Source: Chaetoceros tenuissimus
Lineage: Eukaryota; Bacillariophyta; Thalassiosirophyceae; Chaetocerotales; Chaetocerotaceae
Reading direction: 5' to 3'
NCBI GenBank assembly: GCA_021927905.1
Contig: BLLK01000020.1
Span: forward strand, 2,294,001 to 2,358,000
Length of the DNA: 64,000 bases
A program made the translations under genes and the position numbers. This document shows, one piece after another, positions 1-24,938 of this stretch (positions are counted from its first letter, which is position 1; every line of letters starts with the position of its first letter). The notes under the pieces were generated by a model. The model did not search any database. It saw only the letters and a list, made by a program, of their open reading frames with translations, and had not been told where the DNA came from.

Positions 1-263
1 CCTTTCTGCCTTGTAGTATTTAAAAGAGATGGTAAAGAATAGATTGCCGAGCAGAAAGGAAAAAAATATTTTGTTTACCATCTGTAATTCTTGATTTTGT
101 ATTATACAAGCAGTCATTGGTTTTTCCGTACTACATCCGTACGTATTAAACATAGGTTTTGTTATCCCTAAAGGAAATGGTAGAAAATTTTCACTTTGTC
201 GCATTAACTTCGTACAATAGCCCCCCAAACACGACTGGCAATGTAGCGGCAGGTAGAGTCTAG
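1..263. repeat. Dispersed repeat copy 1 (pseudoknot-bearing element)
   Basis: About 265 bp recur with roughly 80% identity at 24668-24938 in the same orientation. The element may extend left of the window. The first 83 bases contain two interleaved stems: 1-9 pairs with 51-59 (CCTTTCTGC/GCAGAAAGG), and 27-36 pairs with 74-83 (AGATGGTAAA/TTTACCATCT). This is the order of an H-type pseudoknot. The 3' half is the better conserved part and includes CCGTACGTA at 137-145 and a TTTGTTATCCCTAAAGG block. There is no long ORF and no visible terminal duplication. It could be a non-coding RNA family, a SINE-like element or a shared regulatory element. Function is unknown. Confidence 0.8.
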
Positions 264-677
264 CTCGCTTGGTTGATCTTGCTTTTTCACCTAGAGCCTA
301 AAATGGCTATCTTGTTGGCATCCGTTGGGTTTTGTTTGACTTTTTTCACTCGCTTTTCGAATCTGACTCAACAACTAAACAACACCTGTATATATCTATC
401 CATCAATATCCATAGTAGATAATCTGTTCAGAACATGTCTAGCGTTTTCATCTGAAAAAAGTAGCTGAAATACAAGAAAAATATTGAAAAATTTCATTTT
501 TCAATTTGGCTAAATTAGCTTCAGTCCATTGCACGTCATTGTCCAAAAACTTTGCGCTTAAATTCTAATAGGTAACTTCCTTGCCTTACCTTAATTTAAA
601 TGAGAGCTTCGGTAACTTCAAACTTTTTCTGCCTTCAATACTGCTCACTATATAAATAGAAACAACACCACAAAATC
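264..677. other. Intergenic, 5' flank of methyltransferase gene
   Basis: AT-rich spacer without a credible ORF. A TATA-like run TATATAAATA lies at 649-658, about 20 bp before the ATG at 678. It is close enough that it may be in the leader rather than a true TATA box. Nothing else is recognised. Confidence 0.4.
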
Positions 678-1511
678 ATGCAGAAGGAAAAGACGTTGCA
701 GTTCTGGGATGATTTTTATGAGAAAGAGGAGCAGACAAAGGAATGGATAGTGCAGCCTTCACAACATATTTTGAATATGATAGAGGAGCATCTTCCATCC
801 TCTTCGGATGTAGCCGATTCTCTCCATATCCTTGAAATTGGATGCGGAAATTCCCAATTTTCTTTGATATTATGGGAGTATCTCAACAACAAAATTGAAT
901 GTAATGAGATTGATTTGGAAAGCGTACACGTTACTGCTACGGATGTAAGTAGTGTTTGTATAGATAGTAATCTACAACGAGATTCGGAACGAATGAAGAA
1001 GTTTGGACAACATTCATTTCATTATAAAATTTTGAATGTTTTGCAAGAAAATCAAAGTTGTCAACACAAATTTCATTTGGTGCTGGATAAAGGCTGCCTT
1101 GATACATTTTTGTTCCGTAGTGGGAAGAACGAAGAAACTTCAATATTGCACACACTACTCGACAATGTACATTCTTGGTTAAAAGATGATGGAAAATATA
1201 TTATTTTTTCTCCGAGACAAAAGATAAAAGCCCTTAGGGATTATAATGGGTTTGCCTCCGTCGAAAAGGTGAAGATAGCTTGCACAGGAGACTTGGATGG
1301 AAAGTCAAGTGATGAAGAGACTATCTACATACACATATGTACCAAAAATAAACTTTATCAAATAGGAGATGTTCCATTCCGAAGCAACATGAATAACGTT
1401 CCTGATTTTTGTTCATCATGTAAAATATCTTTTCACGAATTTAGAAAAGGCGAAGCCATGTCTGGAAAAAGAGAGACGTATTGGTTTCGAACATGGATAA
1501 ATCATACATGA
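678..1511 (+). CDS. METTL12/METTL13-type class I SAM-dependent methyltransferase
   Basis: A single-exon 277-residue protein. The SAM-binding motif I is LEIGCGNSQ at residues 52-60. A downstream VLDKGCLDTF block (about residues 135-144) is the signature of the METTL12/METTL13/EFM4 group, whose known members methylate lysines on proteins such as citrate synthase and eEF1A. The N-terminal segment with FWDDFYEKE matches the usual start of this family, and the length is typical. No targeting peptide is obvious, so a cytosolic site is likely. The substrate cannot be told from sequence. The ATG at 678 follows a short AT-rich leader. Confidence 0.75.
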   Translation: MQKEKTLQFWDDFYEKEEQTKEWIVQPSQHILNMIEEHLPSSSDVADSLHILEIGCGNSQFSLILWEYLNNKIECNEIDLESVHVTATDVSSVCIDSNLQRDSERMKKFGQHSFHYKILNVLQENQSCQHKFHLVLDKGCLDTFLFRSGKNEETSILHTLLDNVHSWLKDDGKYIIFSPRQKIKALRDYNGFASVEKVKIACTGDLDGKSSDEETIYIHICTKNKLYQIGDVPFRSNMNNVPDFCSSCKISFHEFRKGEAMSGKRETYWFRTWINHT

Positions 1512-1758
1512 CACTGTAGAGTATAAATTTAAGGGAATACAAAGAGCATTGTGTTCAAATCAAACCAGTGTGAGGGAAGGCACAAATTTTAAGAGAAAAA
1601 GTATGTTTAAAATATAGAATGCCGTCTTCGTCTGGCCGTCTCTATGTAAGGTATATATGTACGTACTAATGGTTACTGGTATTTCAACTCAAGTCAGTCC
1701 TTAACACCATACGAGGTTTAATTCAAAATCATAGCTTGAGATATCTTCCATTGAAACA

Positions 1759-2415
1759 ATGTCTAGTGAAACGAAGGCTTCTAATGAAGGATTTAAACTT
1801 CCTAAAGTTGTCCCTCAAAATGTGAGTTTGAAAGCTCCTAAGAGTAGGGAACAACAAATGATTGAGAAACAAAGAGAGATTATGTCAAAGCTAATATTCC
1901 CGTCGCATGTAATATCTGAAAAGGCTCATCCTAATGTCTCATCGTACAAAGAACTGATTCGAGAACTTGAGTTGGCAGCGAAAGATATCATGACCGAAGC
2001 TGGCGAGGAAAGATTGTTCACAAAAGACGACTTCCAAAAGTTGAGTAAATCAGGCCAAACTTTTGAAGATATTAAAACTGTGAAGAACAAGTGCGATGTA
2101 TTTTTGCGCCGATCAAAGATATTTGAGAAGCAAGCCAAGGAATTAAATGAGCAAGGTGCTGATAGAAGTAAAACCGTCGAAGCAGCATCTATGTCAAAAA
2201 TATTCAATATGAACCATTCATACTGTGTTGCTACTGTATCATGCCCCCAGCGGATGGCAGTTTTAAACCATTGTTTTAGTCGATACCCTCCTGACGTCGT
2301 TAATGCATTGCTAAAAGCTGGGCAGCATGAATACCTATGTGGAAAAGAACGGAGTGCTGTAGAACGATGTATAGGTCAAAAAGTTCAGAAAACAATGTCA
2401 AAAATTCTAGAGTAA
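1759..2415 (+). CDS. Twin CX9C (CHCH-like) protein of unknown function
   Basis: A 218-residue single-exon protein of no family I can name. The last third carries CPQRMAVLNHC and CGKERSAVERC. Both have exactly nine residues between cysteines, and a 21-residue linker separates them. This is the twin CX9C pattern of CHCH proteins, which are imported into the mitochondrial intermembrane space by Mia40 and locked as helical hairpins. The N-terminal two thirds are charged and helical, with a basic Q/K-rich start and no presequence. A mitochondrial location is inferred from the pattern only. Its stop lies 30 bp from the stop of the convergent rRNA methyltransferase gene. Confidence 0.6.
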   Translation: MSSETKASNEGFKLPKVVPQNVSLKAPKSREQQMIEKQREIMSKLIFPSHVISEKAHPNVSSYKELIRELELAAKDIMTEAGEERLFTKDDFQKLSKSGQTFEDIKTVKNKCDVFLRRSKIFEKQAKELNEQGADRSKTVEAASMSKIFNMNHSYCVATVSCPQRMAVLNHCFSRYPPDVVNALLKAGQHEYLCGKERSAVERCIGQKVQKTMSKILE

Positions 2416-2445
2416 TAAAGTAAAAGAGCATAAATATTTAAGTAT

Positions 2446-4145
2446 TTAATTCTTTCCATTAAGGAAGTGCCAGAGCATGATACCTCCAGTTACACTGACA
2501 TTTAAGGAGTCAACACCAGCATTTGTATTTCCTGCAACAGACGCTGCTTCACTTCCTGGAATTTTAACAAAGCCAGTGCAACTTTTTGATACCAATGTTC
2601 GAAGGCCATGACCTTCTGACCCCAATACTAAAATGGTTGGAGGCTGTGATTCTCCAACTTTCACATCTTGTAAGTCAAAGCATTCTGCATTCATCCCGCT
2701 TGGAGCAGAAGCTGCTGCTCCCAAAATTCTCCACCCTTCTTCTTTTGCTGCTGATAATGTTCTTGGCAAATTACTTGTAGAATATACTTGGCATAATTCA
2801 AGTGCTCCTGCACTAGCTGCTGAACTGATTGCACTAGCCGGAGCGGAGTTTTTCGAACAAACCATGATTCCAATGGATGCATTTGTCTCATTTTCTTTAC
2901 CTGGAGATGCCCCTCCCAAAAAATATGCAGATCGAAGCAATGCTCCGAAATTCTGTGGGTCTACAACTTCATCTAATACTAGCCAAAGAGATGGCGTATT
3001 TTCATCTTCTTTTGGATATGGGATACGTGTAATTGGTTCAAATTCTAATGTTCCTGCTCTCAAGACAAAACCCTATCAAGATTGCTGTGAGTAAAAGGAC
3101 CGTAGAAAATTGTATATATTATCTAAAAGCATATATACCAATAACTTACCTGATGAGGACGATTTCCACAGAGAGTGTTCAAGACCCCCTTATCTACATA
3201 AGCTACAGGCACATTATTTTCTTTTGCGAGTTGTTCAACTTGCTCTGCAGTCACAGCTTTGTCTCCAGTCTTTCCTCCCGACCCATGTTTGTAATTTTCT
3301 TGTACAAACAACCAAGGTGAATATTGCGCTTCAGGTTTTCTATCTCTTTGTCTCATCTCGTGCTCCAAGTCTTCGCCTTCCAATAAATCAAGATTAATAT
3401 AATTGTCAGGACTGACAAGATCTCTTTTCTTTGCAGTCAGGGCATTGATGACTGGAGCAAGTCCATACAAATGAACAAATCCAGCCTTTTCCAATGCTTT
3501 CATGTTAATTTTCATGTCAGCAGCTTCCTTTTTGTCATCTGGACTCTGAGCAGTGAAGCGATTTCTGTCACCACCACCTCTGCCTCTACCTCCTCCTCTT
3601 CCTCCTCGTCCGCCTCTTCCACCACGACCTCCTCGTCCACTGTTTCCTCTACCTCCTTTTCTTCCAACACGGGGATCTTCCATGACACTACGGCTTCTAC
3701 TTGAAGAAGAATCATTTACAAGCCCACCCCAGTCATCACTTTGTCCGCCCCAATCATCAAAAGCATCTCTATTTGTTTTTTTAGGAGCTGAACTTTCACC
3801 CCAATCATCATCAAAACTATCTCTATTACCGCGTGCATTTCCCTTTTTCTCTACAGGATTGCCCCAATCATCAAAACCATCTGTGCTACGTCTACGACGC
3901 ATCTTCCGTCCTTGATCATTTATTGGAATTCCAGGCATGGAAGGCTTTGAGTCTTCAGGTGCCTCACCCCACATTGAAATGGTATTGCGGAACTTTCTGC
4001 CTGATCTTGAAGTCACTTTCGTCGCAACAGATTGTTGAAACGGAGTAGATTTTGCAAGAAAGGAGAATGCTTTCACTTGGAATGTACGTGACAGCAACAT
4101 CGTCAGACCAAGGCAGGCTAAATGCTTACTAGTTTTACCAATCAT
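2446..4145 (-). CDS. MRM1-like SpoU/TrmH 2'-O-ribose rRNA methyltransferase, organellar
   Basis: Two exons, 4145-3150 and 3072-2446, with a 77-nt GT-AG intron; joining gives 540 residues. The C-terminal SPOUT domain has all three motifs: DEVVDPQNFGALLRSA, LVLGSEGHGLR and IPGSEAASVAGNTNAGVDSLNVS. The join restores NRPHQGFVL, the MRM1/RlmB substrate-binding hallmark. MRM1 methylates a guanosine in the peptidyl-transferase loop of organellar large rRNA. The ATG at 4145 is preferred over one at 4280 because it opens a targeting-like segment (MIGKTSKHLACLGLTMLL, then VKAFSF, resembling a diatom plastid A/F cleavage site). The middle is odd for the family: four DDWG/DDDWG-type motifs followed by a long RGG box. 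Plastid versus mitochondrial location is unresolved. Confidence 0.85.
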
Positions 4146-4447
4146 ATGCTGAACTATGGATGGATAGAATTTATAGATTCTATGCAAAGTTTTAAAATAG
4201 TATGACAAAGATAGGGAAATAAAGTGGTATGCACAGTATGGTATGCAGATGAATGTTGTGTTCTGTTCATTTGATGTCAATACAATGACGTTATGTAGAC
4301 CTTAGAAAAAATGAATGGCTGTCAAGCACCCGACTGACGGATATGATCACAAATCTAACAATGATGAGCCGTCAAATTGATGAAATGTTCTGTACATAAC
4401 GCACACAACGGCCCGTCACTTTATTTTTTTTAATTATTTCCTAAGAG

Positions 4448-5958
4448 ATGAGTAGAGTATGGCATATGAACTTGCTTGTGAGGTGCCTTCTTTCGAAAAG
4501 ATCGCCTCTCCATGCTTCGCAAGGCCAACGGCGTCAAATAGCAACGATTGTAGCTCCATTTCATCCCCAGTCATATCATCAATCTGAAACTCTTGGCCAT
4601 TTCTTTACCATCAGAAAATTTTCGACAAACGAGTCATCAGACTCACCAGATGAAGCCGCGCTCAAGGATTATGTATCATCAGCAATCGCAAAACGAATAA
4701 TCACAATGACCTGTCGACATGACGAGATTATGACATCCTTGCAAGAATCAGGCAACAGTAATGATACCAAAGAATTATCATCTCTATCGCCAGTTGCACG
4801 CTTATATTCAGATTTTAAAGATATAAGAGGAGAAATTGAAGCTATACATGAATTACAGAAGCAAGCAGAAGAACTTGATGATAATGAAATGTTGGAAGAA
4901 TGCAAAGAAGAAATTGAAGGATTATTGTCGCAACTGAAGCCGATAGGTGAAAAAATGACTGAAGCTGTTTTACCAAAGAATGATGATGATTTTGGAGCAG
5001 ATGCAGTGATGGAAATTAGAGCCGGTACAGGTGGTGACGAAGCATGTTTATTTTGCAGTGAATTATTGGATGCATATGAAAAGACTGCAAAGAGTATGTC
5101 ATGGACCTTCGAGATATTGAATATCACAAAGACTGATATTGGCGGAGTAAAAGAGGCCGCTGTTGCCATTAATGGTAGAGGAGGAGGGTATGGTGGTTTT
5201 GGAGATGATGCACCTGCATTAGGACCGTATGGATTCTTCAAATTTGAGTCAGGAGTGCATAGGGTGCAGAGGGTCCCCGTGAATGATGTAAGAATTCATA
5301 CAAGTGCCGCTTCAGTAGCAGTTCTTCCTGCACCTTCCGACAATGGCAATGATAATGAGCTCCTTCCACAGTCAGAGCTCAAGATAGAAACAATGCGTGC
5401 ATCCGGAGCGGGGGGTCAGCATGTTAAGTGAGTGTGTTCTTCGGGATGAAGACAGTACTACACTCACGAGTGCGTTCTTCTCGACTCTTACTTTTGCGTT
5501 CATTTTTACATGCTTTTTTTTCCAACACTCATGAACTCATACAACACCTTTACTTTACCATCAGTACAACAGACTCAGCAGTTCGTATCACACATATTCC
5601 CACTGGTATTACTGCTTCTATTCAAGACGAAAGAAGCCAACACAAGAATCGCGCAAAAGCTATTAAATTGATTTCAGCACGTGTAAAGGATAAATTACAA
5701 GCAGAAGAAGCAAAGAAAAGAGGAGATGCTAAAAATGCACTATTAGGAGGAGGTGATCGTAGCGAAAGAATTAGAACATACAACTACCCTCAAGATCGTG
5801 TGACAGATCATCGCAGTAAACAGTCAGAATTCGGGATTGTAAAGTTACTATCTTTAGGAGGTGAAGATGAAGGCCTTGTAGGTGTATTCTCTCCAGATTT
5901 GAGGTCGATGGAAAGACAAGAGCTACTATCCCAAATAGAAGAAGATGAGCGAAGATAA
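4448..5958 (+). CDS. Organellar peptide chain release factor 1 (RF1 type)
   Basis: Two exons, 4448-5427 and 5565-5958, with a 137-nt intron that splits the Asn codon right after GAGGQHV; 457 residues. The catalytic GGQ needed for peptidyl-tRNA hydrolysis is intact, and the RF domain ends [15 protein letters not shown] as in bacterial RF1. The N-terminus (about 60 residues, Arg/Ser-rich, few acids) looks like an organelle presequence. The codon-recognition loop is unusual. Bacterial RF1 has RVPATESQGRIHTS, whereas this protein has [12 protein letters not shown], two residues shorter and without the PxT tripeptide. It clearly groups with RF1 (RVQR...RIHTS...AVLP) rather than RF2 (no SPF). Its stop is only 9 bp from the stop of the convergent FkbM gene. 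Confidence 0.9.
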
Positions 5959-5967
5959 AAATAGATA

Positions 5968-7095
5968 TTATTTTTGAGATCCATCTACATTCCTTATTGG
6001 TTTTCTCGCAAGCATTTCTGCTAAATGATAATTGGGATTATCTTCAAGCACTTCTTTCCCATTCTCCCGTGTTACTTGAAACCCATACTTTCTTAATCTA
6101 GGTAATAGGTCTTCGCACTTTTGACCATCTAGCCATTTCTTGGCAAATTCAAACTTAATAGAGTCAATTTTACCAGCAATACTCTTCCCCATTCCTTCTA
6201 AAATTTTGCATTCAAATCCTTGACTATCTAATTTTAATAATGGCACATTCACATTGTCCAAGTCCAGAACATCATTCAAACGTTTGACATATACATCAAA
6301 TTGGAATTCTTCTTTGGCAACTTGACTCTCTGCATCTTTAACAAATGTACCAATATTCGAATTCCCCAAGTTATTGTGTCCAGAATATATTCTTGACTTC
6401 ATTGTTTGGTCCCCTAAACCGATAGGAAACAGGACAAGTCGTTTTTGATATTCTTCTGGCATTCTAGATAATGTACTCATCAAATTGAATTGATTCATGG
6501 GATGTGGTTCGAACGCAATAATGTTTGCATTTGTAGAGAGTAGCATTTCTACAACACATGAACCTATATTAGCACCAATCTCAAGATACAATGAATTTTC
6601 GTCGATACTCTTTTCATTCCATAATTTTGGTAATGCATCGCAGTCATACCATCTATGCTTATTTCTTATTCTTGCACTTACAATATCTCTAAACGGATGA
6701 GTACAAAACTCTGTTGTTTTACCAGTAGTAGAGTTGAATGTAGTCCAATCACAAGAAAACTTTGAATCCCGTATTTGCTCTTGGAACGACTTTCTTTGCC
6801 ATGATTTCTGAATGCTTTGTTCAAATGCTTTTGTGAGCACAGGATTTGGATCTGTGTGAGATATTACGAAATATTCATGACCATCTTCAGCTCTTTCTTC
6901 ATTGGAGCTACTGGTAGGCGCCTTGGGGGTTGACACAAAACTAAGTAGCTGATCTGTGACAGTGTTATCCTTCTTTTTGTTGTAGCGATCAAGAATAAGA
7001 TATAAAGAAAATGCAACCAAAAGTATGAATATCTTCTTGTTAGCGAAATTCTTTCGAGTTCTTCTCTTGCGAGGGATTCTGCGGGGAAATGGCAT
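5968..7095 (-). CDS. FkbM-family methyltransferase, type II membrane protein
   Basis: A single-exon 375-residue protein. A very basic N-terminus (PRRIPRKRRTRK) precedes one membrane span (KIFILLVAFSLYLILD, about residues 25-40), giving a type II topology with a lumenal catalytic domain. The methyltransferase core shows LYLEIGANIGSC (motif I), IIAFEPHP (acidic ribose-binding Glu) and LLKLDSQGFECKILEGM, all hallmarks of FkbM O-methyltransferases. Members methylate sugars or secondary-metabolite hydroxyls, and a Golgi glycan substrate would fit the topology, but this is inference. Its 3' end is nearly contiguous with the RF1 stop. Confidence 0.8.
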   Translation of the reverse strand: MPFPRRIPRKRRTRKNFANKKIFILLVAFSLYLILDRYNKKKDNTVTDQLLSFVSTPKAPTSSSNEERAEDGHEYFVISHTDPNPVLTKAFEQSIQKSWQRKSFQEQIRDSKFSCDWTTFNSTTGKTTEFCTHPFRDIVSARIRNKHRWYDCDALPKLWNEKSIDENSLYLEIGANIGSCVVEMLLSTNANIIAFEPHPMNQFNLMSTLSRMPEEYQKRLVLFPIGLGDQTMKSRIYSGHNNLGNSNIGTFVKDAESQVAKEEFQFDVYVKRLNDVLDLDNVNVPLLKLDSQGFECKILEGMGKSIAGKIDSIKFEFAKKWLDGQKCEDLLPRLRKYGFQVTRENGKEVLEDNPNYHLAEMLARKPIRNVDGSQK

Positions 7096-7444
7096 TGTTG
7101 AAAGAAATAAATAGACCAGGAAGTTTGTTCAGAAGTTACACACGCATCACACTTCTCTTTTGAGGCAATACACACACTACGGTGGACTACTTCTCACACT
7201 TTCGTGCTCGTCTGCTGAGGTAATCAACAACAATACTGTAAAATGTAGTAAGGTATGTAGTAATCACAAAACCTTTTTGTTCTCCCTTTTTCATTCGTCT
7301 TCAGCCATCACGTACGTAATACCGCTTCCGTTGAGAAAATTTATAAACATGGTTGTACTAATTTAGTTTATAAAATAAAAAGAGTCGTCATGCGACTTAA
7401 CATCCCATAGTAATCAGTAATCAAAAAGCTGAAAAATATGTTTT
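7096..7444. other. Intergenic, between two minus-strand genes
   Basis: The 5' flank of the FkbM gene and 3' flank of the LNR gene. ACGTACGTA lies at 7310-7318. A diverged short direct repeat (AAAAGAGTCGTCATGCG at about 7378-7394, against AAAAGAGTCATCATACG at about 7448-7464) spans the 3' end of the next gene. Nothing else is seen. Confidence 0.4.
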
Positions 7445-8519
7445 TTAAAAAGAGTCATCATACGGTCTGGTTATTATTCCACTGTTCAATTCCAGCATGA
7501 ATAATCCTTGTGCATGTGAAGATCCACTATAGAATAATACACCTAGTTTATTCATAAAAGCGATTCATATATGAAAAAAAATGAGCAAATTTGAACATAT
7601 AGATTGAAAAATAGTTATTCGGAAAATAGATATAGACTCACCAATGACACTGACTGAGATTACAAAATATGGAGAGGTATACCATGAAGACAGGCAATCT
7701 CCGCCATCGAATGCACAGTCTCTACTATTGTACAAACTATCATCGCAAACTTCATTCGCCAGCAAATGGGGATATTGGATTTGACACTTGGACAGAGTCG
7801 CATTGAATCTATCGATATCAAAATCAAAGCAATCAATGTTGGGTGTGCAATCATTCGGAAAGGTCCCATTAAAGTCTCCATTGTAATATGAAGTGCTGAA
7901 ATTACCCCAGCATTCTGTGCAATTACCATCAAAACGGTTGGGGAAAAATTTTGTGGCAAAATTATCATGCCTGCTGTCCAATTGAAAGCTTACATTGACT
8001 ATGAATATGCCCAATAAACCAGCTAACAGTGCTTTCATTCCGTATGCAAATCTGGGAATTGCAACCATCCATGATTCATATAAAGCTACACCAACTAAAC
8101 CGGATAATGAACAACACATGAATATTGAAAGAAGTGCATAGCTTGTCCTATCTGGAATGGTAAGCTCTATAAAGTTACCAGGTTTTGTTGCAGTGATTAT
8201 AAAACCTACGAGATCTGTAAAGATAGAAATACAGTTGAATACAATACATGCCAGTCTTCAAAAGAATCAAAGGAAGTTAGGAGCCGATGTATAGTAGACT
8301 AAATGTCTGTAAGTGCTATTTGAATACTCGTACGTACCTTGAATCCATCGAACAAAATTTTCTGGCTGCATGTTTTGAGTTATTATTCCCAAAGAGACTA
8401 CTTAGATCATTTGCTACAAATGAAGGATTATCGTTTCTAGTCACGTCCCTTGTGACACCAAGATCTACTTCAAAATTTTTCTGGGCAGAATTTCCTCGAA
8501 GAGGAGTTTTTGTTTCCAT
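7445..8519 (-). CDS. Multi-pass membrane protein with a Notch/LNR-type Cys repeat
   Basis: Three exons, 8519-8338, 8255-7642 and 7542-7445, give 297 residues; introns are 82 and 99 nt. The soluble N-terminus is followed by a hydrophobic segment (LACIVFNCISIFTDLVGFII), then spans beginning YALLSIFMCC and MKALLAGLLGIFIV, an extracellular Cys-rich loop and a final span (PYFVISVSVIG). The loop holds ECWGNFS and CDDSLYNSRDCAFDGGDC, the calcium-binding pattern of Lin-12/Notch repeats, plus several N-glycosylation sequons. The 3' exon (GVLFYSGSSHAQG onwards) is the least certain. The splice choices are those that keep the frame open. Function is unknown; surface calcium-dependent interaction is conceivable. 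Confidence 0.6.
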
Positions 8520-8874
8520 TTTATTCTAATCGATTCACTTCAATCCTTTCAGTAGTGCGTACAAGATGTGAATACGTTATTGAAAATGAAAGGGAATGCA
8601 TCTAATGTCGAGCGAAAATACTTCATCAAACATCATGCATGCATAACATCGCAACCGAGATACTGTGATAGTACGTACAGTATAATTTCAAACTACCGGT
8701 TGTTTACCCGTTAGAAGATGATAATTTTTTACCCTAATAATAGACAATTCTTTATGGATTCCATCATACTTTCATGTGTAGGTGGAAGCAATGAAACTGT
8801 GGGAAGAAACAACTTAAATTTAATTATTCCTCATGATCTATCGTGATTTAGTTTCGTCTCTATAAAAACTATGA
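8520..8874. other. Intergenic, 5' flank of the LNR gene
   Basis: AT-rich spacer between the start of the LNR membrane-protein gene and the 3' end of the RRM gene. It contains GTACGTAC at 8671-8678 and no credible ORF or RNA gene. Confidence 0.4.
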
Positions 8875-9811
8875 TTAACGTTTCATTCTCTTTCCATTAC
8901 TTTGATCATCATAGACGCTGCCATGTTGCGCTTGCCATAGCTTTCCTTCTCCATTTCTGAAACTTCCCTTCATCTTTCCCTCTTCGTAATCGACTCTGCA
9001 TGGTCTGCCTTTCAAGTGAAGAGTTCCTTTATGTGCTCTTTGAACTGCTGAGAAAGCTCCTTCTGGATTTTTAAATTCGACATACCCAAATCCTTTTAAT
9101 TGTTTAGTCTGATAGTTTCTTGTAAGACGAACGCCACCTTCAACAATTTTTCCACACGATCTAAACAAATCAGCTACATCTCTCTCATCAATTCCATTAT
9201 ATGGCAAATTCCTCACAAAGATAGTTCTGCATCCTTCCGGTTGTGCTCTAGGTCCCTTGGATGATCCTTCTGGGCCTCCACCATTACGATCTTTTGCAGC
9301 TTGAATATTCAAGTAACGATTCTGCAAGTGTTTGCCATTTAGCTCATTAATTGCTTTGTTCCTAGACTCAACACTATTGAATACAACATGACCAAACCCA
9401 CGTAATCTTCCAGAATCTTGCCATCTAATGATAAATATGAGTATCTTGTAAACTACTTGTAATACATACTATATTTGATGCATCAATAATTACATACCTT
9501 GGAAGACGCATCTCAAGAATGTCAGTAATACCATTGGAAGTGAAAAATTCTTTCACTTGTTCTTCAGAAGCTACAAAGGGGATACCCTCCACAAACACAG
9601 TATGCTCGACAGAGTCAGCTTTATTAGTTGCATCAGTAGATACTCCAACTTCCCCACTTTCATCTGCATTCTCATTATTTTTCTTTTTACGTTTTCTCTT
9701 TCTTTTGCGTTTGGATTTACCCCCTTCTTCCCCTTCATTTTCAGCCTTTTCTTTGTCTTCTTCTTCTTCCTTGACTGGATTTTCTGATACTTCTTTCTCG
9801 TCGTCTGACAT
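8875..9811 (-). CDS. Two-RRM nucleolin-like RNA-binding protein
   Basis: Exons 9811-9498 and 9424-8875 are separated by a 73-nt intron; 287 residues. The N-terminus is acidic (EEEEDKEK) and then strongly basic (KRKRKRKRKKK), a nucleolar-type signal. RRM1 starts HTVFVEGIPF and has RNP1 as RGFGHVVF, which is created by joining the exons. RRM2 has TIFVRNLPYN (RNP2) and KGFGYVEF (RNP1). The C-terminus is basic with Gly and Arg. The acidic/basic tail plus two RRMs resembles nucleolin/Gar2-type ribosome biogenesis factors, but a specific orthologue is not assigned. Confidence 0.8.
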
Positions 9812-10137
9812 ATTTTATACACTAATAGATATTACAAATGCTTTTATATATTTATATACGGTAGGTTAGTATTGATATCAAAGTTATTGCCGATTGATTG
9901 CAAATTGCCAACATTTCAATTTTGTTCTGTAGAAATGGGTGGCTTTCAACCTCTCCAAAAGAGTGTCATAAAGGGCCTATAGCCAGCAAGACGAGGGCGT
10001 CAAGTTGTTGTGGAACCTCCCATCAAAAAATCAATAACGCAATAATGAAAGATGCTGCCGTTGAAAACATAATATTGAACCTACCAGCGATTCTTTGTTA
10101 AAACTTCGTAGATATTGAAATTAAATATATTTTGAAA
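9812..10137. other. Intergenic, divergent promoter region
   Basis: A 326-bp spacer shared by the minus-strand RRM gene and the plus-strand unknown gene at 10138. A short ORF at 9898-10101 has no recognisable content. No defined promoter element is seen. Confidence 0.35.
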
Positions 10138-15484: not shown

Positions 15485-15804
15485 GAATATTTTCTAATGA
15501 GTTGAAGAGGAAAGAATGCTTCGCGGTACGTAGGTCTTGCAGTCCTGTACTGTTAATTCTTTTATGATTCTCCAATGTTTCAAAAGAACACTCAAGAAAG
15601 GCAAGACTACGTATGTTTGTTGACTGTTATTTTTTGGTCCCGTCGTTGCTCAATGCTTATTATGTCCAACCAACTCCGGAGTAGTCATGTGCAATGCCAA
15701 AATACCGTTAAATATCGGTTTTTGTCTATTTTAGTATTGTGATATTTTTAAACTAAAAGTGGGACTGGATACTGGCGCTTTCATCCAAAAACTAAGCAAT
15801 CAAA
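15485..15804. other. Intergenic, divergent promoter region
   Basis: The spacer between the protease start and the direct repeat upstream of sulfatase A. GGTACGTAGG lies near 15525. No ORF or RNA gene is seen. Confidence 0.35.
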
Positions 15805-15950
15805 ACAACAAAACAAAACTGAATTATTAGAAGAAGAATCATCATCCATTATTGTACTTGATTATACGAGTATTACTACGCAAACAAAACAAAACTGAAT
15901 TAGAAGAAGAAGAATCATCCATTATTGTACTTGATTATACGAGTACTACT
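15805..15950. repeat. Tandem ~70-bp direct duplication upstream of sulfatase A
   Basis: Two adjacent copies, about 15805-15877 and 15881-15950, share CAAAACTGAATTA, GAAGAAGAATCATC and CATTATTGTACTTGATTATA in order. They differ by small indels (TTA and ATC triplets) and a few substitutions. The duplication ends 44 bp before the sulfatase ATG, so it probably lies in the promoter or 5' UTR. It looks recent. Confidence 0.85.
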
Positions 15951-15994
15951 CTTTGTCCATCTACACATCTTGGTAAACCGATAATTAAAAAGAA

Positions 15995-18013
15995 ATGAAG
16001 AGAAACAACTACATAATACATTTCCTTTCCATACTATTGTCTATCGTCACAGCTCAAGACAAGCCAAATCTTGTAGTTGTGTACACAGATGAACATAATC
16101 TTCGTACCATTGGAGCCTATCGAGAATTGCAATCCAAGAAAGTAGCAGAACCCTGGGGAGATGGAGTTGTTGTTGATACGCCAAACATAGATCGTCTTGC
16201 AAATGAAGGGTCTATATGGACTTCATTCTACACTGTTGCTCCGCTTTGTACACCTAGTCGGGCTAGTTTCATGACTGGTCTGTATCCAAAAGCAACTGGA
16301 GCACATTTGAATCATAATGAAATGTACGAAACGATGACAACTTGGGCCAAAGTATTGAAACAAAGAGGATACCACACTGGATATACCGGAAAGTGGCACC
16401 TCAATGGGAACGAAAAACCAGGTTGGAATTCAGGCAAGAAGTATGGTTTCATAGATAATAAATGGCAGTACAATCGAGGACATTGGAAATTCTTTGAGGA
16501 TCATCCTACTCTAGGTCCTCAGGCATATGAATGGACAGATGAATCTGAAGCCAAGTTTGCAAAAACAATGGATAAAAACTATGTTACTGACTTCCTCATG
16601 GATCGGGGCATTGAAACCATGCAAGACGCTATCGATCAAGACAAACCCTTTGCAGTTATGATTTCAATACCGTAAGTAGTATGCGCGTATTTGTGACTTG
16701 ATATCCGTCCTCAGTTTCGACTTATGTTTACTCAACACTTTCGCTATAACAAATGGTTCCAGAGATCCACACTCTCCCAACATAGTTCGTCCACCATATA
16801 ATTCAATGTATCAACATTTTAAATATGAGGTACCAATGACAGGAAAAGCAGCATTGAAAAAGAAACCTGCTCTTCCTGGTTGGTCTGCTATTAGCTTGGA
16901 TATATCTGAAGCAAGTGCGACGATTAAATCCATGGAAAGTGACCCCATTAGACATGGATATTATGCAAACATTTTTGGTATGGTGAAGTTGATTGATGAT
17001 CAAGTTGGGAAACTATTTCAATTTCTCGAGAACAATGGAGTCTCGGATGATACAATTGTCGTTTTTACATCAGGTAAGTGCTTAGCGAAGATCCCGTTTT
17101 TTGTATCCATAATCTCAATTGACGCAATGTTCTCATACCCTTCACCGATATAGATCACGGAGATCAGCTTGGAGAACATGCAAAGCATAACAAAGGACGA
17201 CCATATGAAACAAGTGCAGGTGTGCCTTTTTTAATGAGGTGGCCAAATGGTATAGAAGCAGGCAAGGTAATCAACACAGCTTATACAAGTGTGGACTTTG
17301 CTCCCACTATATTAAGTATGATGGGAATCACAAATCCAAACATGGAATTTCATGGCATTGATGGCTCGAAAGAAGTTCTCTCTCCAAATAAGAATACAGA
17401 CTCATACATCACCAAGAAGCAAACAAGGTTTATTACAGATTCAGCCACAAGTAAATGGGCGACTGCTGTACGAGATGATTTCAAACTTACGCTCTCTAAT
17501 GGAGAACCATGGTTTTTTGACTTGAGTACTGATCCCAATGAACTTCATAATGTGTACACCAATGCAAACTACACGTCAATAATTGAAGAGATGCAGAGTG
17601 ACTTGTATGATACAATGTTTCAACATCAATTTCCACTTGCAGAAAACGATGTTATATTTTTCTCACAACCATCCTGCTGGGACTCAAGAAGTCAAATATC
17701 TGCATGGAATAAGAGACTATGCAACGAGCTGACAGATATCAAATTTAGCCCAGCTTGTACATGGCGAAAGATTTATGAGGAATGCCCAAATGCGTGCAAT
17801 AGATGCTGTGTAGATTCACCTGGCAAAATCTTTATCAATGGTCAATTGAAAACCTGCAATGAAGTATCTGAATATTGTGAAAACAAAAAGGTGCAAAATT
17901 TTTGTCCAGTGAAATGCAATGCATGTCCAAATCAAAGATCAATGTCTACAGGAGATGAAGAAGAGTCATCTAATTTGAATGAATTTGAAGATGACGACCT
18001 TCGACTTTTGTAG
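15995..18013 (+). CDS. Secreted sulfatase A with two C-terminal ShK-like Cys modules
   Basis: Three exons, 15995-16671, 16763-17073 and 17154-18013 (introns 91 and 80 nt), give 615 residues. Signal peptide ends near VTA (residue 20). Cys85 in CTPSRASFMTG is the type I sulfatase site converted to formylglycine. NLVVVYTDEHN supplies N-terminal metal ligands, and the exon 2/3 join creates SDHGDQLGEHAKHNKG, the second metal site. The fold resembles choline/iduronate-2-sulfatase-type enzymes. After the catalytic domain come two six-Cys modules (from CWDSRS and from CVDSPG) with ShK-like spacing, then an acidic tail. Substrates are probably sulfated polysaccharides or esters outside the cell, which is inference. 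A paralogue lies at 29916-31933. Confidence 0.9.
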
Positions 18014-18205
18014 AATTCAAAAAGCTATAATTGACTTTAGGTTGAAGTAATCAATATATTTAATGTTAAAGACTAGTATACAGATTTTAATGTGCAATAT
18101 GAATGCAAGAGCATGAGAGAAGATTTATTCTAAAAAGTCTTGGTCTCTCAGGCATTGCAATATTACATTGGATGATAATTATACATTGAGAGAATCATTT
18201 AAATC

Positions 18206-18922
18206 TCATGGAGAAATCCTCTTCCTAGCAGCCGAAATCTCATTGGTGGGAGAATTAACGGCATATGATCTTGTATATTCACCTTTCGCATGCATGTTTG
18301 GTGTAGATAGCTGTCGTTTAGGGGTTTTATTATTGCAGTGTGACAACGCCCGATTTGAATGGTCACACTTTAGAAATCTTCTTTTCTTTGGCAGAGGCTC
18401 TGTCGATGGTAGAAAATCGATGTACTGGCCCCAGTCTTCGTGACCTGGAAAATTAGCGTCACATCCTTTGCGAGAATGATGATGCAGAGGTTGATGAATA
18501 GAACAAGAACCAGGGCATGACTCGGATGTCACCTCATCTTTCCAAGCCATATCATCTTCAGAGACACTTTGAATGGTTTTTCTTTTTCGTTCTGTTGTGG
18601 TACACTGCTCCTGCAACAGATTGAGGCCCCTTGTCAGAGTATGCTTAGATGTCAAGCCATGTTGATTATGGGCCGCTTTCTTGGAAAGTGTCAAAGGAGA
18701 AGCGGCTGTGCTAGCAGAAGGGGAACAACATGAATGTTGACAAGAGGAAGGAGTAAGGAATCTAGTGGTAACATCTGTATCATCACTTGAGTTAGGAAAG
18801 TCATCGAAGGAAACTCTCCTTGCAGCAGCAGCTTGACTGTGGCTGAGCCCTTCTGACAAGTCACTCTCTGAATATGAGCTAAAGAAGTTTCTAGACTGTT
18901 TTCTCGATGGTAGTTTCGGCAT
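18206..18922 (-). CDS. Small Ser-rich nuclear-type protein with RVSF motif, unknown
   Basis: Single exon, 238 residues from the ATG at 18922. No catalytic family is recognised. It is Ser/Thr-rich with basic nuclear-localisation-like clusters (TERKRK, PKKRRF, RKRI). RRVSFDDF near residue 40 matches the RVxF docking motif for protein phosphatase 1. EDWGQYIDFLP near residue 167 looks like a conserved short motif. It also has Cys/His-containing stretches (CQHSCC, HQPLHHHS) without clear zinc-finger spacing. A nuclear regulatory role is a guess. It is divergent from the kinesin gene. Confidence 0.5.
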   Translation of the reverse strand: MPKLPSRKQSRNFFSSYSESDLSEGLSHSQAAAARRVSFDDFPNSSDDTDVTTRFLTPSSCQHSCCSPSASTAASPLTLSKKAAHNQHGLTSKHTLTRGLNLLQEQCTTTERKRKTIQSVSEDDMAWKDEVTSESCPGSCSIHQPLHHHSRKGCDANFPGHEDWGQYIDFLPSTEPLPKKRRFLKCDHSNRALSHCNNKTPKRQLSTPNMHAKGEYTRSYAVNSPTNEISAARKRISP

Positions 18923-19424
18923 CTTAGCAATTAGCAATATTTCTGTTTCCTTCTTTCTAGAAAGTAATAGCAGGGAAACGTTTGATATGGAGATTTTTAT
19001 AATAGCTTCATCACTTTAAATAAGTGAGACTATGGAGTTGTTATGTAAAAATCGCTTGGGTGACAACCACCTGATTGGTTTGAAATACCCTCTAGTTCGC
19101 AATCATTGATGTTCTGCATCAACAGCAACAAAGTGACAACTTGAAGCTGACACTTTTGAGAAGAGAACTAATGGATGAAACAATCTCAGGCGATGACATC
19201 ATTCACTACTAAAACTCTACTTGATTACGACTTTTTCTCAACGGATAAATTTCAACCAATTTAGTGAAAGGATTCTTTTTTGTGCGAACGTGGTTATTAT
19301 TATTGTCTCCATCAATGCACCATATCACATATCAAATCCTTCTTCCAACTACGAGTACATCTTCATCTGTTGTATGTTCTTCAACAACAGTGACCATTGG
19401 TACAACAATATTCATGAATGAACA
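18923..19424. other. Intergenic, divergent promoter region
   Basis: A 502-bp spacer between the minus-strand Ser-rich gene and the plus-strand kinesin gene. There is no coding signal, RNA gene or repeat; promoters of both genes must lie here. Confidence 0.4.
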
Positions 19425-22400
19425 ATGGAAAATGATATAGGTAGTAGACGACAAGGCCGTGGAACAAATGATGCGAGAGATGGAACAGCTGGAGACTCCA
19501 CCATGATGTCTGGAGGAGAAAAGATAAATGTGTTTCTTCGTCTTCGACCCATGAATAAAGTTGAGCTTTCATCTAGAAGTAAACGATGTATAGAAGTTCA
19601 TGAACAGGGAAATGGGCTGAAGCAAGAAATTACAGTTCATTCACAATTAGATGGAGAGCATGACTTTAGTTTTAGTCAGATATTTGACGAGAAAGATTCT
19701 GAACGGAGAGTATACAATGATGTGGTTGCACCATTGGCCACGAAATTTATACAAGGAGAAAACTGTACATTAGTTTGTTTTGGACAAAGTCAGAGCGGTA
19801 AAAGTACTCTATTATTAGGAAGAAAATCGTCCAAAACTGATAAAACAATATCGCAAAGTCAGAATGGAAGTAGTGCAAATGCAAGCATAAGTTTAGGTAG
19901 TAGCATCTCAGATGAAAAAGATGGACTCATAGCAAGACTTGCTTATGATATATTTGATAGGATGAAGGGATCGCCAAGCACAATAGAATTCAGTGTGAAA
20001 CTTTCCTACATTGAGATATATTTAGAAATGATTAGAGACTTGTTGGTTCCTTCGAAACGATATCTCAAAATTTTGGAAGATGATGAAATTGACGAGGAGT
20101 ACGATTTGAAAAGAAGTCCAACGCCCAAGATCGAAGGCCTGAGTCATATTTCATGCATAGATGCAAATGATTTGATAAAGTTAGTGAATCGTGCGAACGC
20201 ATTTCGATTAGTTAGAGATGAAAAGAATCAAACTGATCTAGGACGATCGCATTCTATATTGATGATAGACATTACGCAGAAGAATATTGTAAATGATGAA
20301 ACAACCACGAGTACATTTATGATTGCTGACACAGGAGGCAATGAAGTGGATGGAAGCAAGGATAAAGCAAGAAGCTTGTTGACAACGCCACATTCATTGC
20401 AACTTGAAACAGCATTGGCAGGGAAATCTCATTCTGCTTTGAAAACAGTTGTGAAGTCTTTAGAATCAAGTGCAAGTACCGACTACGGGATTTCAAGGAT
20501 ACCCAAAACACAATTTTTGGAGTCAAAGTTAACTACAATGTTGGCAGAAGCTCTTGGTGGGAACTCACACTGTTCCTTCATATTAGCTGCATCTCCAGCA
20601 TCGTTGAATGTGACACATACTCTAAATACATTACGATTTGGGAAAAGACTATTGAGTATCACAAATTATCCCACTATTAATATTGAGCCTTCGCCAAGAG
20701 AATGTGCTATTGAATTGGAGAAATCAAAGAAAATTCAGTCAGACCTATTACGTTTGATGAAAAAGGTGACTGAAGAAGTGCAGAATCTCAAAGGGAAAGA
20801 ATCGGATGTTCCAATTGCCGATGATATTTGGAAGAGTTTGAATGATTTATGTTTGAACAATAAATATGCAGTCGAAACCATTATCAAAGATGATATTAAT
20901 GTCTCTGACAATGTATCGTCTGCTGACCAACTTGAGATAGAGCGCGGAAAAATCAAAAAGCTCAAAGAAAAACTTGCAGACATTCGTGACGCCAAAAATA
21001 TGGCCCAAAATGCAGTTGACATGCTTCAAGGGGAATGTCTCTTTCTCCGGAAAGAAAGCGATGAAGTTCTTCAAGCAAAGAAGAAGAATACTATAGATTT
21101 GATTGAAGCCCAAAATGATATTCAAATGCTAACTCAAAAGAAGCTAGAGGCTGAACACAAACTATCAACGAGCAGGTTTCGTGAAATTGAAGCTGTGCGT
21201 TTTCTCAGACAGTATCGCAACTTTCACAGGCAATTAGTTGAAAGTATGACAGTAAATAGATCCGAGAACGAAATACCACCATTCAATGTAGATGATCTTG
21301 TGGATATTGACCAATTCTTAAAAGATGCTGGCTTCATAGAAGGCAATGAAGTTGGGAAGTTAGCGAAGATCGACGAATACCAACCAAGTGATGAAGCGCT
21401 GATGAAATCAACTAAATTTGCAGAGTTCCATAGAAAAATTTCTCCTGTTCAACCTTCATTGAAGAATAGTCCTCCGTCTTCTCGATATTCAAGTTCGGGG
21501 GGAAGCAGTAGTGAAATATCTTCTCTAACCACAAACCAAACACCGTCGTCAAAGAGTTCTAGTATTATACAACTAGAGGAGGCAAGGAATAGATTGAACA
21601 ATGCAATACAAAACCAAAGTTCGCCTGCCAATAGCAACGAAGTTAATTCAACAATAGATACTGTGAGTACTTTGACAATCCCATCAGATTTCCCTGTCGA
21701 TTTTCACCTATCAACACCAGGATTGAGCCTGGACCCAAATGAATTGGATAGCAAAAATAATGAAAACCAGACTCGTCAAACAGGGAGTACAAATATCGAA
21801 GATCTTTTGCGAAAGGCGAATGAAAAAGTATCATCCATGAGGCCACCTCGTGGAGGTTCAACCAGTAATCCGTACGAAAAGAAGCAGCTAACACCTGCAG
21901 ATATGTTGGTAGACGCACGACTCGAAAAGGCTCAGAAAGAGTTGATTGAAATGACGAAACGTTGTTTGAATTTACAGAATCGTCTGAATAACCAAATTGA
22001 TGAAAACTCAGAAAGTTCCAAGAAAATGATTGCAAACCAGCAACTTACTGCTGATGTAACGGGTTTAGAATCTGGAATCAAGACAAAAAGCCCTGATCTT
22101 GACGAGGTCATCTTGAAATTGAAAGAACTGGACCTCGTTAACAAATCATATAGTGATCGTTTGAAGAATAGGGATCAGCATATTACTTATCTTGAACAGT
22201 CTCTCAGATCTTTGCAGGATAAGCATTGGAGAAGTGTAAATACTCAGATTGAGGATGAAAAGAGATTGAGGGACGAAATTGAAGAAAAGACGAATGTAAT
22301 TGAGTCTCTGGTGACAAAGATATGGCAAGAGGGGAATGCAGAGGTGCCAATTCAAAGCAGAATCACTGTTCCGTTCCAAGGCTCTAAAGTGGAAGAAAGA

Positions 22401-22874
22401 AATGACATATCTTCTACAAACAGGAATAGAGCTGAAGTTAGGGATGAATTTACAGCAAAAAAGAAAGACTTCAAAAGTCAGAGTTCCTTACCACTTACTA
22501 CCGTTGAAATAGGAGAAGCTGAGGAAGATATGAGTCCGTACATAACGGGAGGGAAAAGCAATGAATATAAACCAATAAGATTTTCACCAAAACGCGGTCA
22601 TGAGGTGAAGTCTGCAATTTCGCCTATTTCTGCGCCAGAGTTAGATGGGATCGTAAACAACTCTTCCAAATCGATCATTAGTAACCCCTTGGTGACACCA
22701 TCTATTATTGACAGCATACAAAGAGAACAATTATCGGTTCCTTCTTTAGTGATGTCCTCAAGCAGCATGAGCGATAGTGTCGACTTGGCAACAATTCGGG
22801 AACAATTGAGGCAATTGGATGTTTTGACCAAAACATGGAAGGAGAAGCAACCTGGAGATTCTCCTTCAAGATGA
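19425..22874 (+). CDS. Divergent kinesin motor protein
   Basis: A 1149-residue single-exon protein. The N-terminal motor (about residues 30-415) begins INVFLRLRPMN. The P-loop is GQSQSGKS at 120-127 (canonical GQTGSGKT). The switch I region reads QTDLGRSHS instead of NxxSSRSHS, and switch II reads IADTGGNE instead of LVDLAGSE. ALGGNSHCSFI and TLNTLRFGKRLLSI match the end of kinesin motors. Coiled coils follow (about 510-610, 805-960), interrupted by Ser-rich linkers. The N-terminal motor implies plus-end transport if active. The altered switch residues suggest weak or absent ATP hydrolysis. I cannot place it in a numbered kinesin family. Confidence 0.85.
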   Translation: MENDIGSRRQGRGTNDARDGTAGDSTMMSGGEKINVFLRLRPMNKVELSSRSKRCIEVHEQGNGLKQEITVHSQLDGEHDFSFSQIFDEKDSERRVYNDVVAPLATKFIQGENCTLVCFGQSQSGKSTLLLGRKSSKTDKTISQSQNGSSANASISLGSSISDEKDGLIARLAYDIFDRMKGSPSTIEFSVKLSYIEIYLEMIRDLLVPSKRYLKILEDDEIDEEYDLKRSPTPKIEGLSHISCIDANDLIKLVNRANAFRLVRDEKNQTDLGRSHSILMIDITQKNIVNDETTTSTFMIADTGGNEVDGSKDKARSLLTTPHSLQLETALAGKSHSALKTVVKSLESSASTDYGISRIPKTQFLESKLTTMLAEALGGNSHCSFILAASPASLNVTHTLNTLRFGKRLLSITNYPTINIEPSPRECAIELEKSKKIQSDLLRLMKKVTEEVQNLKGKESDVPIADDIWKSLNDLCLNNKYAVETIIKDDINVSDNVSSADQLEIERGKIKKLKEKLADIRDAKNMAQNAVDMLQGECLFLRKESDEVLQAKKKNTIDLIEAQNDIQMLTQKKLEAEHKLSTSRFREIEAVRFLRQYRNFHRQLVESMTVNRSENEIPPFNVDDLVDIDQFLKDAGFIEGNEVGKLAKIDEYQPSDEALMKSTKFAEFHRKISPVQPSLKNSPPSSRYSSSGGSSSEISSLTTNQTPSSKSSSIIQLEEARNRLNNAIQNQSSPANSNEVNSTIDTVSTLTIPSDFPVDFHLSTPGLSLDPNELDSKNNENQTRQTGSTNIEDLLRKANEKVSSMRPPRGGSTSNPYEKKQLTPADMLVDARLEKAQKELIEMTKRCLNLQNRLNNQIDENSESSKKMIANQQLTADVTGLESGIKTKSPDLDEVILKLKELDLVNKSYSDRLKNRDQHITYLEQSLRSLQDKHWRSVNTQIEDEKRLRDEIEEKTNVIESLVTKIWQEGNAEVPIQSRITVPFQGSKVEERNDISSTNRNRAEVRDEFTAKKKDFKSQSSLPLTTVEIGEAEEDMSPYITGGKSNEYKPIRFSPKRGHEVKSAISPISAPELDGIVNNSSKSIISNPLVTPSIIDSIQREQLSVPSLVMSSSSMSDSVDLATIREQLRQLDVLTKTWKEKQPGDSPSR

Positions 22875-23262
22875 AGTCAATAGAGTAAAATTTACATATT
22901 TTTGTTTTGATATGTACTTTTCCACGCACGCACAAAAGCAATAAAATGATTTTTTGTTGAAATGAATGTTTCTTTTGCTACACTTCTCAAAGCTTCATTC
23001 ATCCTACTATTTTAGATATTGTTGTCATAGTCCGTCTTTTCTGAAGCTCGTGCAAAGTGCAAAACCAACGCATGTCATCATCCTCACCAGCAGCCTTTCA
23101 CTTGCTTTGGACTTTTCATTTTTGACAACAACACAACAACATCATCGGCAATTCGCACTTTTCTTTCATTCTTGAAAAATAGATTCATTCCTCTTGCGAG
23201 GTATTTTGATCCAGTTTCAAGCAAATGCAATAGTCTAAGAGGCTAATATCTAAGAAGCCAAT
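22875..23262. other. Intergenic
   Basis: A 388-bp spacer between the kinesin stop and the next gene. An AT-rich 3' flank is followed by a 5' flank without recognisable elements. No credible ORF. Confidence 0.35.
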
Positions 23263-24227
23263 ATGATAGGCAGTGAAATCAAATTTTCTGATGACTCTGC
23301 ACAGAAAGATTCAAGAAGAAGGAGTTGTTGGACTCCAAAATCCAATTCCGAATTTTGGCTAACAATCATCTGGATTGTAGTAATACCTCTCGCTGGCATC
23401 ATCACCGGAATGGTAAGTTTCATCCTGATTACGTGGATAATTTGCAATACTAGCCATCTAATATCCTAACTCAATACCTATGCTCTCCCTCCAGGTCTTC
23501 CTTGGATTAGGTATTCAGAATAGAGAATCTAGCAAAGATTTAGATTCTAGTGTAGACTTTGTTCAGTTAGAAAATAAATGCACAATATCTGAGATTGTAA
23601 GTAGCATCGTATTTCATGTCGATAGCAGTATTTTTGCTGAGTGAGATTTTTGCCATTGCAGTAGATTTTCGTCACTATTCAAACGCTCACAATTTTCTTT
23701 TTCGTAACTTTTGACTGTATTAGACATTTATCAAAACAATCCAAAAGACAGGAGACAAGGGAAAGAAAACAGGCTGTGAAGATGTCTATCAATATTGGTT
23801 CACAGCACTCAATCTACAAGATGAAGATCCAGTATACCAAAACATTACAAACGATACATTCGTCTCGTTTGATAAGCATCAGAAGCGTGACACAAATGAT
23901 TGTAGTAGATCGACGCGTGTAGACCCATTGTTAGAAGTCAATGATGAGGTAGACTGTTGGCGACCAAGTCAGCCCGGTACCGATCTTAATAAATGGTACA
24001 GATGTGGAAATGAAGAATGCATCAAGGTATTCCCACCGGCAGACGATGTAGACAGAGCAAGAAATATCGCCGGATCGCAATACCTCGGTGGAATAATAGC
24101 CTTAAGTGTTAGTTCTGGGATGCTAGTTATTGGAAGTGTCATAACATGGTGGTTACGAAAAAAGTATTATCCCGAAACCATTGCTTCCAATCGGAATCTA
24201 CCTACCGCTAGATTTTTATGGGACTGA
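23263..24227 (+). CDS. Two-span membrane protein with Cys-containing loop, unknown
   Basis: Three exons, 23263-23412, 23495-23596 and 23724-24227, all phase 0, give 251 residues; introns are 82 and 127 nt. A short basic N-terminus (SRRRS) precedes span 1 (LTIIWIVVIPLAGIITGMVF, completed by splicing). A ~140-residue loop with seven cysteines (ENKCTI, KTGCEDVYQYW, CWRPS, WYRCGNEEC) follows, then span 2 (GGIIALSVSSGMLVIGSVITWW) and a basic tail (LRKKYY). The pattern suggests a plasma- or endomembrane protein with an extracytoplasmic disulfide loop. No family is recognised. Splice sites are supported by frame continuity across all three exons. Confidence 0.6.
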
Positions 24228-24667
24228 AAGGGGCTTAAGTAAAGTGCTATTTCTACGACATTTTCTTCAAAACGAAGTTGGTTAGCATTGAAAAACATTG
24301 TATTCCTAATGAAACTATGATAATAGAACCTGCTACAATCAATGATCTGTTTTTATTGACTCTTACCTACTGAAGAAGCAGGATGGATTTGTCATAGGTA
24401 TTTTTTTTATTAGATTTTTCAGCTCAAGTGAGAACCAACTTCGTAGGACTCACCTTCACACAAAAAAAATGTAAAAATCAAGTGATTATTATTTTTTCAT
24501 TTTTTGTATGAGAATCAAATCACTATACATAAATCGATATTATATATATTAAAGAGCATCGTGGAAGTGTTCAATATTAAATTTTGTTGATATATGATTT
24601 TCATAAGCAAAACTCTATAGTGCAGATGTAGTGATAAATATCTTATGCAATTTTCAATGAAATTTTT
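24228..24667. other. Intergenic with a 12-bp inverted repeat
   Basis: ACGAAGTTGGTT at 24272-24283 and its reverse complement at 24433-24444 bound a ~150-bp AT-rich segment just downstream of the two-span protein. No coding potential. It may be a decayed element or 3' UTR structure. Confidence 0.4.
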
Positions 24668-24938
24668 CCTTTCTGCCTTCTGACATACAAAGCAGATGGT
24701 GAAGAATACATTGCCGAGCAGAAAGGAAAAAAATATTTTGTACACCATTTGTATTTTATGATTTTCTATTTTTAATGCAGTCATTGGATTTTTCATACGA
24801 CATCCGTACGTATTGAACATACCTTTTGTTATCCCTAAAGGCAATGGTAGAAAATTTTCACTTTGTCGCACCAACTTCGTACAATAGCCCTCAAACACGA
24901 CTGGACACGACTGGCAATGTAGCGGTAGGTAGAATCTA
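24668..24938. repeat. Dispersed repeat copy 2 (pseudoknot-bearing element)
   Basis: Second copy of the element at 1-263, same orientation. Stem A is unchanged (24668-24676 with 24718-24726). Stem B (24694-24701 with 24743-24750) carries a double substitution that keeps pairing: A34-T76 of copy 1 is G24701-C24743 here. It also has a G-T(U) pair at 24695/24749 where copy 1 has G-C. A 10-bp internal duplication (CACGACTGGA) near 24897-24912 is specific to this copy. The conserved 3' half again includes CCGTACGTATT. The G-U pair is compatible only with an RNA read from the plus strand. No ORF. Confidence 0.8.

Follow-up and report, generated by a model that had tools for sequence, protein, structure and literature searches.

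A MITE-like DNA transposon with a conserved internal hairpin and a 5-bp GANTC target duplication in the diatom Chaetoceros tenuissimus

Introduction

DNA transposons of the hAT superfamily usually carry CAG-type ends. The hAT5 elements make target duplications of 5 bp, IS3EU elements make 6-bp duplications and have TAYGG ends, and CMCT elements end mostly in CA..TG and encode proteins with C(2)C and H(3-4)H motifs (PMC12730594). Pangu-type PIF/Harbinger elements, reported in the brown alga Ectocarpus, make 3-bp ANT duplications (PMC12477816). Template switching, as outlined in PMC8794818, can both generate paired changes in hairpins and preserve them.

Here we describe a short element from the diatom Chaetoceros tenuissimus that can be set beside these systems. 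A preliminary description of the window (the whole 64-kb stretch of DNA analysed) had reported a ~265-bp element in two copies that keep two interleaved stems, and had suggested a structured non-coding RNA family or a small retroelement.

Results

When matches to a 271-bp segment were fetched with their flanks from the window's own genome (41 Mb, 68 contigs), homology ran far leftward and then ended abruptly on both sides, at ends common to about 25 copies with unrelated flanks. By this flank comparison the true unit is an element of 722-733 bp, and the 265-bp segment is only its right-hand third. Both sequences of the preliminary description are thus present as right ends of a larger unit, and its count of two gives way to about 25 element copies, recovered by a genome-wide search such as it had proposed (26 matches to the 271-bp segment, mostly in two identity bands, 97-100% and ~83%). 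The two window copies have the following features:

24199..24931, plus strand: complete non-autonomous element, window copy 2, 733 bp, clade 1; ends placed by loss of homology, inverted repeats and target duplication
24194..24198, unstranded: left target duplication GAATC of copy 2, identical to 24932-24936
24932..24936, unstranded: right target duplication GAATC of copy 2, identical to 24194-24198
24199..24210, plus strand: left terminal inverted repeat TACCTACCGCTA, reverse complement of 24920-24931
24920..24931, minus strand: right terminal inverted repeat, pairing with 24199..24210
1..255, plus strand: right part of window copy 1, clade 2 (C14:2293534-2294255, 722 bp in all)
256..260, unstranded: right target duplication GAGTC of copy 1, with the same 5-mer at the left end (C14:2293529-2293533)

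Copy 1 starts at C14:2293534, 467 bp ahead of the window, and its left 467 bp lie outside. A 22-copy alignment separates three clades, with identities of 97-100% within clades and 86-90% between them; the within-clade identity points to recent copying. The ends are fixed and carry 12-bp terminal inverted repeats (TACCTACCGCTA...TAGCGG[TC]AGGTA). Flanking 5-mers are identical in 33 of the 36 elements scored (30 GANTC and 3 AANTC, the latter at L056, L057 and L074) and unmatched in three copies. Since the AANTC cases show the first base duplicated, the target duplication is 5 bp and not a 3-bp ANT.

The short element has no transposase of its own. Its longest frame, which in clades 1 and 2 measures 130-166 codons, lies on the minus strand, where in copy 2 it runs across most of the element's right half (24515-25006, 163 codons). 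A coding explanation for this frame is not supported, because its dN/dS is ~0.59 (0.137/0.233), it is broken in clade 3 and it is shortened in L031.

Several other features were seen around the copies. One copy (L035, C58:832900-842500) is split by a long insertion with a 1736-codon frame that, judged by eye, has a Copia-type gag-pol likeness, and another (L032, C32:2093903-2096168) is longer by ~450 bp, a stretch bordered by a 5-bp repeat and probably another small insertion. Two candidate further ends, C34:1190116 and C44:721979, were rejected, both lying inside a longer duplicated repeat. At L074, outside the transposon copy, two 30-bp arms form a perfect inverted repeat around a 3-nt loop (1672-1734). 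Elsewhere the genome contains 11 silicon-transporter matches (best E 2e-211), which mark it as that of a diatom. At C17:442278-446357 three such matches follow one another in tandem within a single long frame, and the last of them reads through two stops.

A pattern search for the end motif found a single 3.8-kb element (L034, C34:2212923-2216730) that carries both ends of the short element in the same orientation, with GAATC on each side. It matches the last ~100 bp of the short element at 80-91% identity and the first ~90 bp at 80-84%. Only these ends match; ~540 bp of the short element's interior have no counterpart, so that simple deletion of L034 does not account for the short element. 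The open frame of L034 is uninterrupted over 1105 codons (~1,100 aa). Common ends, orientation, GAATC flanks and a long frame amount to the standard relation between a MITE and its autonomous partner, and L034 is, on this evidence, the likely autonomous mobiliser of the short element.

Searches with the L034 protein gave weak, mostly coiled-coil Pfam matches far below cut-offs, no PDB match by sequence, and in a PDB profile search only keratin-like coiled coils, DNA polymerase beta and OxyR (E>0.06). NCBIfam and PHROGs held nothing consistent for it, and no relative of the transposase was found in viral and prokaryotic collections. Its position inside the element and its conserved D, D, CxxH, RW and E (including D376, D449, C479/H482, R554/W555 and E834, P0001 numbering) mark it as a putative transposase, one in which no known transposase domain was recognised.

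Relatives of the L034 protein were found by protein search within the genome, and they sit in two further element families with 5-bp duplications of the GANTC/AANTC type. One comprises 4.0-kb elements with TACCTCCAGCACG ends (L039 and L040), of which L040 is flanked left and right by GAGTC and L039 has damaged ends; several shorter deletion derivatives occur alongside. The other, L047, measures 6.1 kb and carries TAGTGGGCGGGG ends with GAATC; its frame is broken by one stop. Opposite that transposase-like frame, on the minus strand at 7348-8595, lies a 416-codon frame that is repetitive, Glu/Ala-rich and free of Pfam matches. For a further protein relative, L046, element ends were looked for and not found, and the repeat adjoining its gene was rejected as supplying them, being a separate TTAA-flanked family. 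This ~1,025-bp repeat (L046 1846-2869, at least 7 copies) has TTAA at its ends and CCCTTTCCTAGACGGGAGATCG inverted ends; it is piggyBac-like by target and directly adjoins the P0005 transposase-like gene. A 741-bp element with family-2 ends (L052) has no BLAST similarity to the window element.

The interior of the short element contains two interleaved stems, located in the window as follows:

24663..24676, plus strand: stem A, 5′ arm TTTTTCCTTTCTGC, of a 14-bp inverted repeat that is perfect in all clades
24718..24731, plus strand: stem A, 3′ arm GCAGAAAGGAAAAA, partner of 24663..24676
24694..24701, plus strand: stem B, 5′ arm AGATGGTG, 8 pairs including one G-U in clade 1, interleaved with stem A
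24743..24750, plus strand: stem B, 3′ arm CACCATTT, partner of 24694..24701
1..9, plus strand: visible part of the stem A 5′ arm of copy 1, the other 5 nt lying ahead of the window
51..64, plus strand: stem A 3′ arm of copy 1, 14 nt, pairing with the arm begun before the window
27..36, plus strand: stem B 5′ arm of copy 1 AGATGGTAAA, 10 bp in this clade
74..83, plus strand: stem B 3′ arm of copy 1 TTTACCATCT, partner of 27..36

Stem A has 14 bp, spans 69 nt in the window family and is perfect in all three clades, with one T-A pair changed to C-G in clade 3. It is indeed unchanged in both window copies, as first described, and its length is 14 bp rather than the 9 bp then given; in copy 1 it looks shorter because the window edge cuts it. 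In stem B, of 8 bp, two pairs are altered in clade 1: an A-T has become G-C, and a G-C has become G-U. The two interleaved complementary segments in both copies, the compensated stem B pair (A-T at 34/76, G-C at 24701/24743) and the G-C turned G-T were all read correctly at the outset. Independent compensatory events number only two, one per stem; the stem A event, found in clade 3, was observed independently of the first reading, which covered clades 1 and 2 only. One copy, L019, is without 32 nt of the knot.

The hairpin is not a chance product. Among perfect inverted repeats of the window that span 20-130 nt, stem A alone reaches 12 bp or more, and column-shuffled alignments gave helices of at least 12 bp in 0 of 60 shuffles. 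With the observed substitutions placed at random, 1.3% of trials left stem A paired and 0.15% left both stems paired; in none of 2000 were both paired and compensated. This is in line with the earlier view that interleaved stems would rarely survive by chance; the figures for both stems are optimistic, above all for stem B, because the stems were chosen for being paired. In a 500-shuffle control the paired cells, whose counts are inflated by relatedness within clades, and the covariation score were each reached in 0 of 500 shuffles, and the number of pairs changed on both sides in 156 of 500. The element holds 8 conserved, GU-allowed helices of at least 8 bp and span <100 nt, stems A and B among them, against 2.7 expected. 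The length of stem B alone is not unusual; the compensated pair sets it apart.

Folding z-scores are modest (-1.1 to -2.7) on both strands, and stem A folds about equally well on the minus strand. The proposal that only a plus-strand RNA would tolerate the changes finds its one G-T pair in stem B, but pair 491/532, just beyond stem A, points the opposite way, being C-A on the plus strand and a would-be wobble on the minus strand. Rfam gave no match in the window copies at gathering threshold and none at E<=1 in L009, L021, L023 and L034.

Hairpins of similar kind occur elsewhere. L052 has a perfect 14-bp arm pair with a span of 73 nt, set about as far from the GGGGCTTAAG-type end as in the window family, and at the corresponding place L073 has a different stem of 11 bp in Watson-Crick pairs, or 16 bp with G-U. 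Hairpins related to that of L052 lie at L071 and L072, where T-A is replaced by G-U and G-C at one pair; for these two, location inside a transposon is not shown. Both are on C33, ~10 kb apart, each with a 15-bp hairpin that spans 75 nt and resembles the one in L052; at L071 a gene starts close by. An identity as SNORD70 was rejected, the weak score coming from a terminal stem and a box-C-like stretch only, with no box D. The second-family hairpins are suggestive of a kept structure; the families are few, and the likeness in size may partly be chance. In an unrelated TTAA-flanked repeat, the arms of one clade pair perfectly over 13 bp; in sister sequences 9 of these 13 pairs are Watson-Crick.

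Discussion

Inverted repeats at fixed ends, a target duplication, no transposase of its own and the same-ended partner L034 identify the short element as a MITE, and its mobilisation by the L034 protein is what we infer from these common ends. Taken together, judging from sequence, it is very probably a non-autonomous, MITE-like cut-and-paste DNA transposon mobilised in trans by an L034-type protein. In our model, the L034 protein would be a DDE/RNase-H-type transposase that makes a 5-bp staggered cut at the near-palindromic GANTC and would act on the short elements through the common ends. The internal hairpin is a real, preserved feature of the interior; we think template switching in the DNA the likeliest reason why its arms have stayed alike, perhaps together with selection on an RNA or DNA hairpin.

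Template switching between inverted-repeat arms during replication could produce the compensatory changes at the level of DNA, with no RNA function, and we tentatively place this explanation first, at somewhat short of even probability. The mechanism is published for paired hairpin changes, as sketched in PMC8794818; it would explain perfect 14-bp arms on either strand, and the one-clade perfect arms of the TTAA-flanked repeat provide a parallel in the same genome. Stem B, which is short (8 bp) and interleaved, is harder to explain in this way, and the T-A, G-U, G-C series in family 2 looks stepwise. We hold template switching ahead of RNA selection because folding is alike on both strands, Rfam gives no match, hairpin-less derivatives exist and a single wobble pair carries the strand cue, in addition to the published mechanism and the TTAA-flanked repeat.

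The interleaved stems may instead be a selected RNA pseudoknot, the element or a read-through transcript acting as a structured non-coding RNA. Both stems are intact in three clades with two compensatory changes, wobble pairs are tolerated, and a hairpin comparable in size and position recurs in a second family that differs in sequence and whose relatives at L071 and L072 show T-A, G-U and G-C at one pair. Against this stand the small number of independent compensatory events, the equally good minus-strand folding, the loss of part of the knot in L019, the lone wobble within the stems as a cue to strand, and related short derivatives that have proper target duplications with no such hairpin. 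We regard RNA selection as unlikely. Of the structured non-coding RNA family first proposed, the keeping of stems beyond chance has held and gained a new compensatory pair in clade 3, but two events, modest z-scores and the lack of an Rfam match weigh against the rest. A small, SINE-like retroelement copied through RNA, the other early suggestion, would fit a short, non-coding, dispersed and internally structured element but is refuted, with scarcely any probability remaining, by fixed ends with inverted repeats, a constant and identical 5-bp target duplication, and ends common with a transposase-like DNA-transposon partner.

The element is a MITE with a partner of unassigned superfamily, and two placements of that partner can be weighed. 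Instead of forming a lineage of its own, it may possibly be a hAT transposase that has diverged strongly, a placement that we make tentatively. Its order of D, D, CxxH, RW, long insert and E resembles the hAT DDE core, a resemblance only. The TACC/TAGT ends are unlike the CAG type, and the transposase-like proteins have no hAT Pfam domain, neither the dimerisation domain nor any other Pfam match appearing in any member. The duplication is 5 bp here, against 8 bp as the hAT criterion and 5 or 6 in hAT5 and hAT6, so that it fits hAT5 alone; the 5-bp duplications of hAT5 (PMC12730594) would favour the placement.

Slightly less probably, the ~1,100-aa, Pfam-less transposases, TACC/TAGT ends, 5-bp GANTC insertion and short members with a conserved ~70-nt hairpin that keeps its pairing as sequence changes would represent an undescribed lineage at superfamily level. 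No eukaryotic GANTC-targeting lineage was found in the literature searched (Repbase lay outside this scope, and such an absence is weak evidence), where GANTC and target duplications occur together only in bacterial or unrelated contexts; the transposon lineage may therefore be undescribed.

A strict 5-bp GANTC target, three divergent families and a transposase that libraries do not recognise form a clear signature by which other algae could be searched for the lineage. Recent activity is suggested by the near-identity of copies and by the intact frame of the partner, and the system could make a diatom insertion tool. The hairpin is also a warning case, in that two-copy 'covariation' in a transposon can arise from DNA-level arm copying.

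Compared with known superfamilies, the GANTC element shares with hAT and hAT5 the 5-bp duplication (hAT5) and a similar order of acidic, CxxH and RW positions, and differs in its ends, its strict GANTC target and its lack of a hAT Pfam domain. With Pangu-type PIF/Harbinger it shares the central ANT of the target, whereas its duplication, fixed at 5 bp by the AANTC cases, exceeds the 0-3 bp required of PIF/Harbinger (PHIS), and the ~1,100-aa protein has no Harbinger-type DDE Pfam match. Ends that start with TA recall IS3EU, which is rejected on the 6-bp duplication and TAYGG ends of that group. Duplications of 2-5 bp are common to Transib and the CMCT group, and TACC/TAGT ends and CxxH set the element apart from CMCT. 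KDZ (Zisupton and allies) is rejected because the duplication is 5 bp and not 7-8 bp, and piggyBac because the target is GANTC and not TTAA. As in other MITEs, the element is short, with no conserved gene, terminal inverted repeats, a target duplication and a same-ended partner; it differs from them in its unassigned superfamily, its larger interior unrelated to the partner and its conserved internal hairpin.
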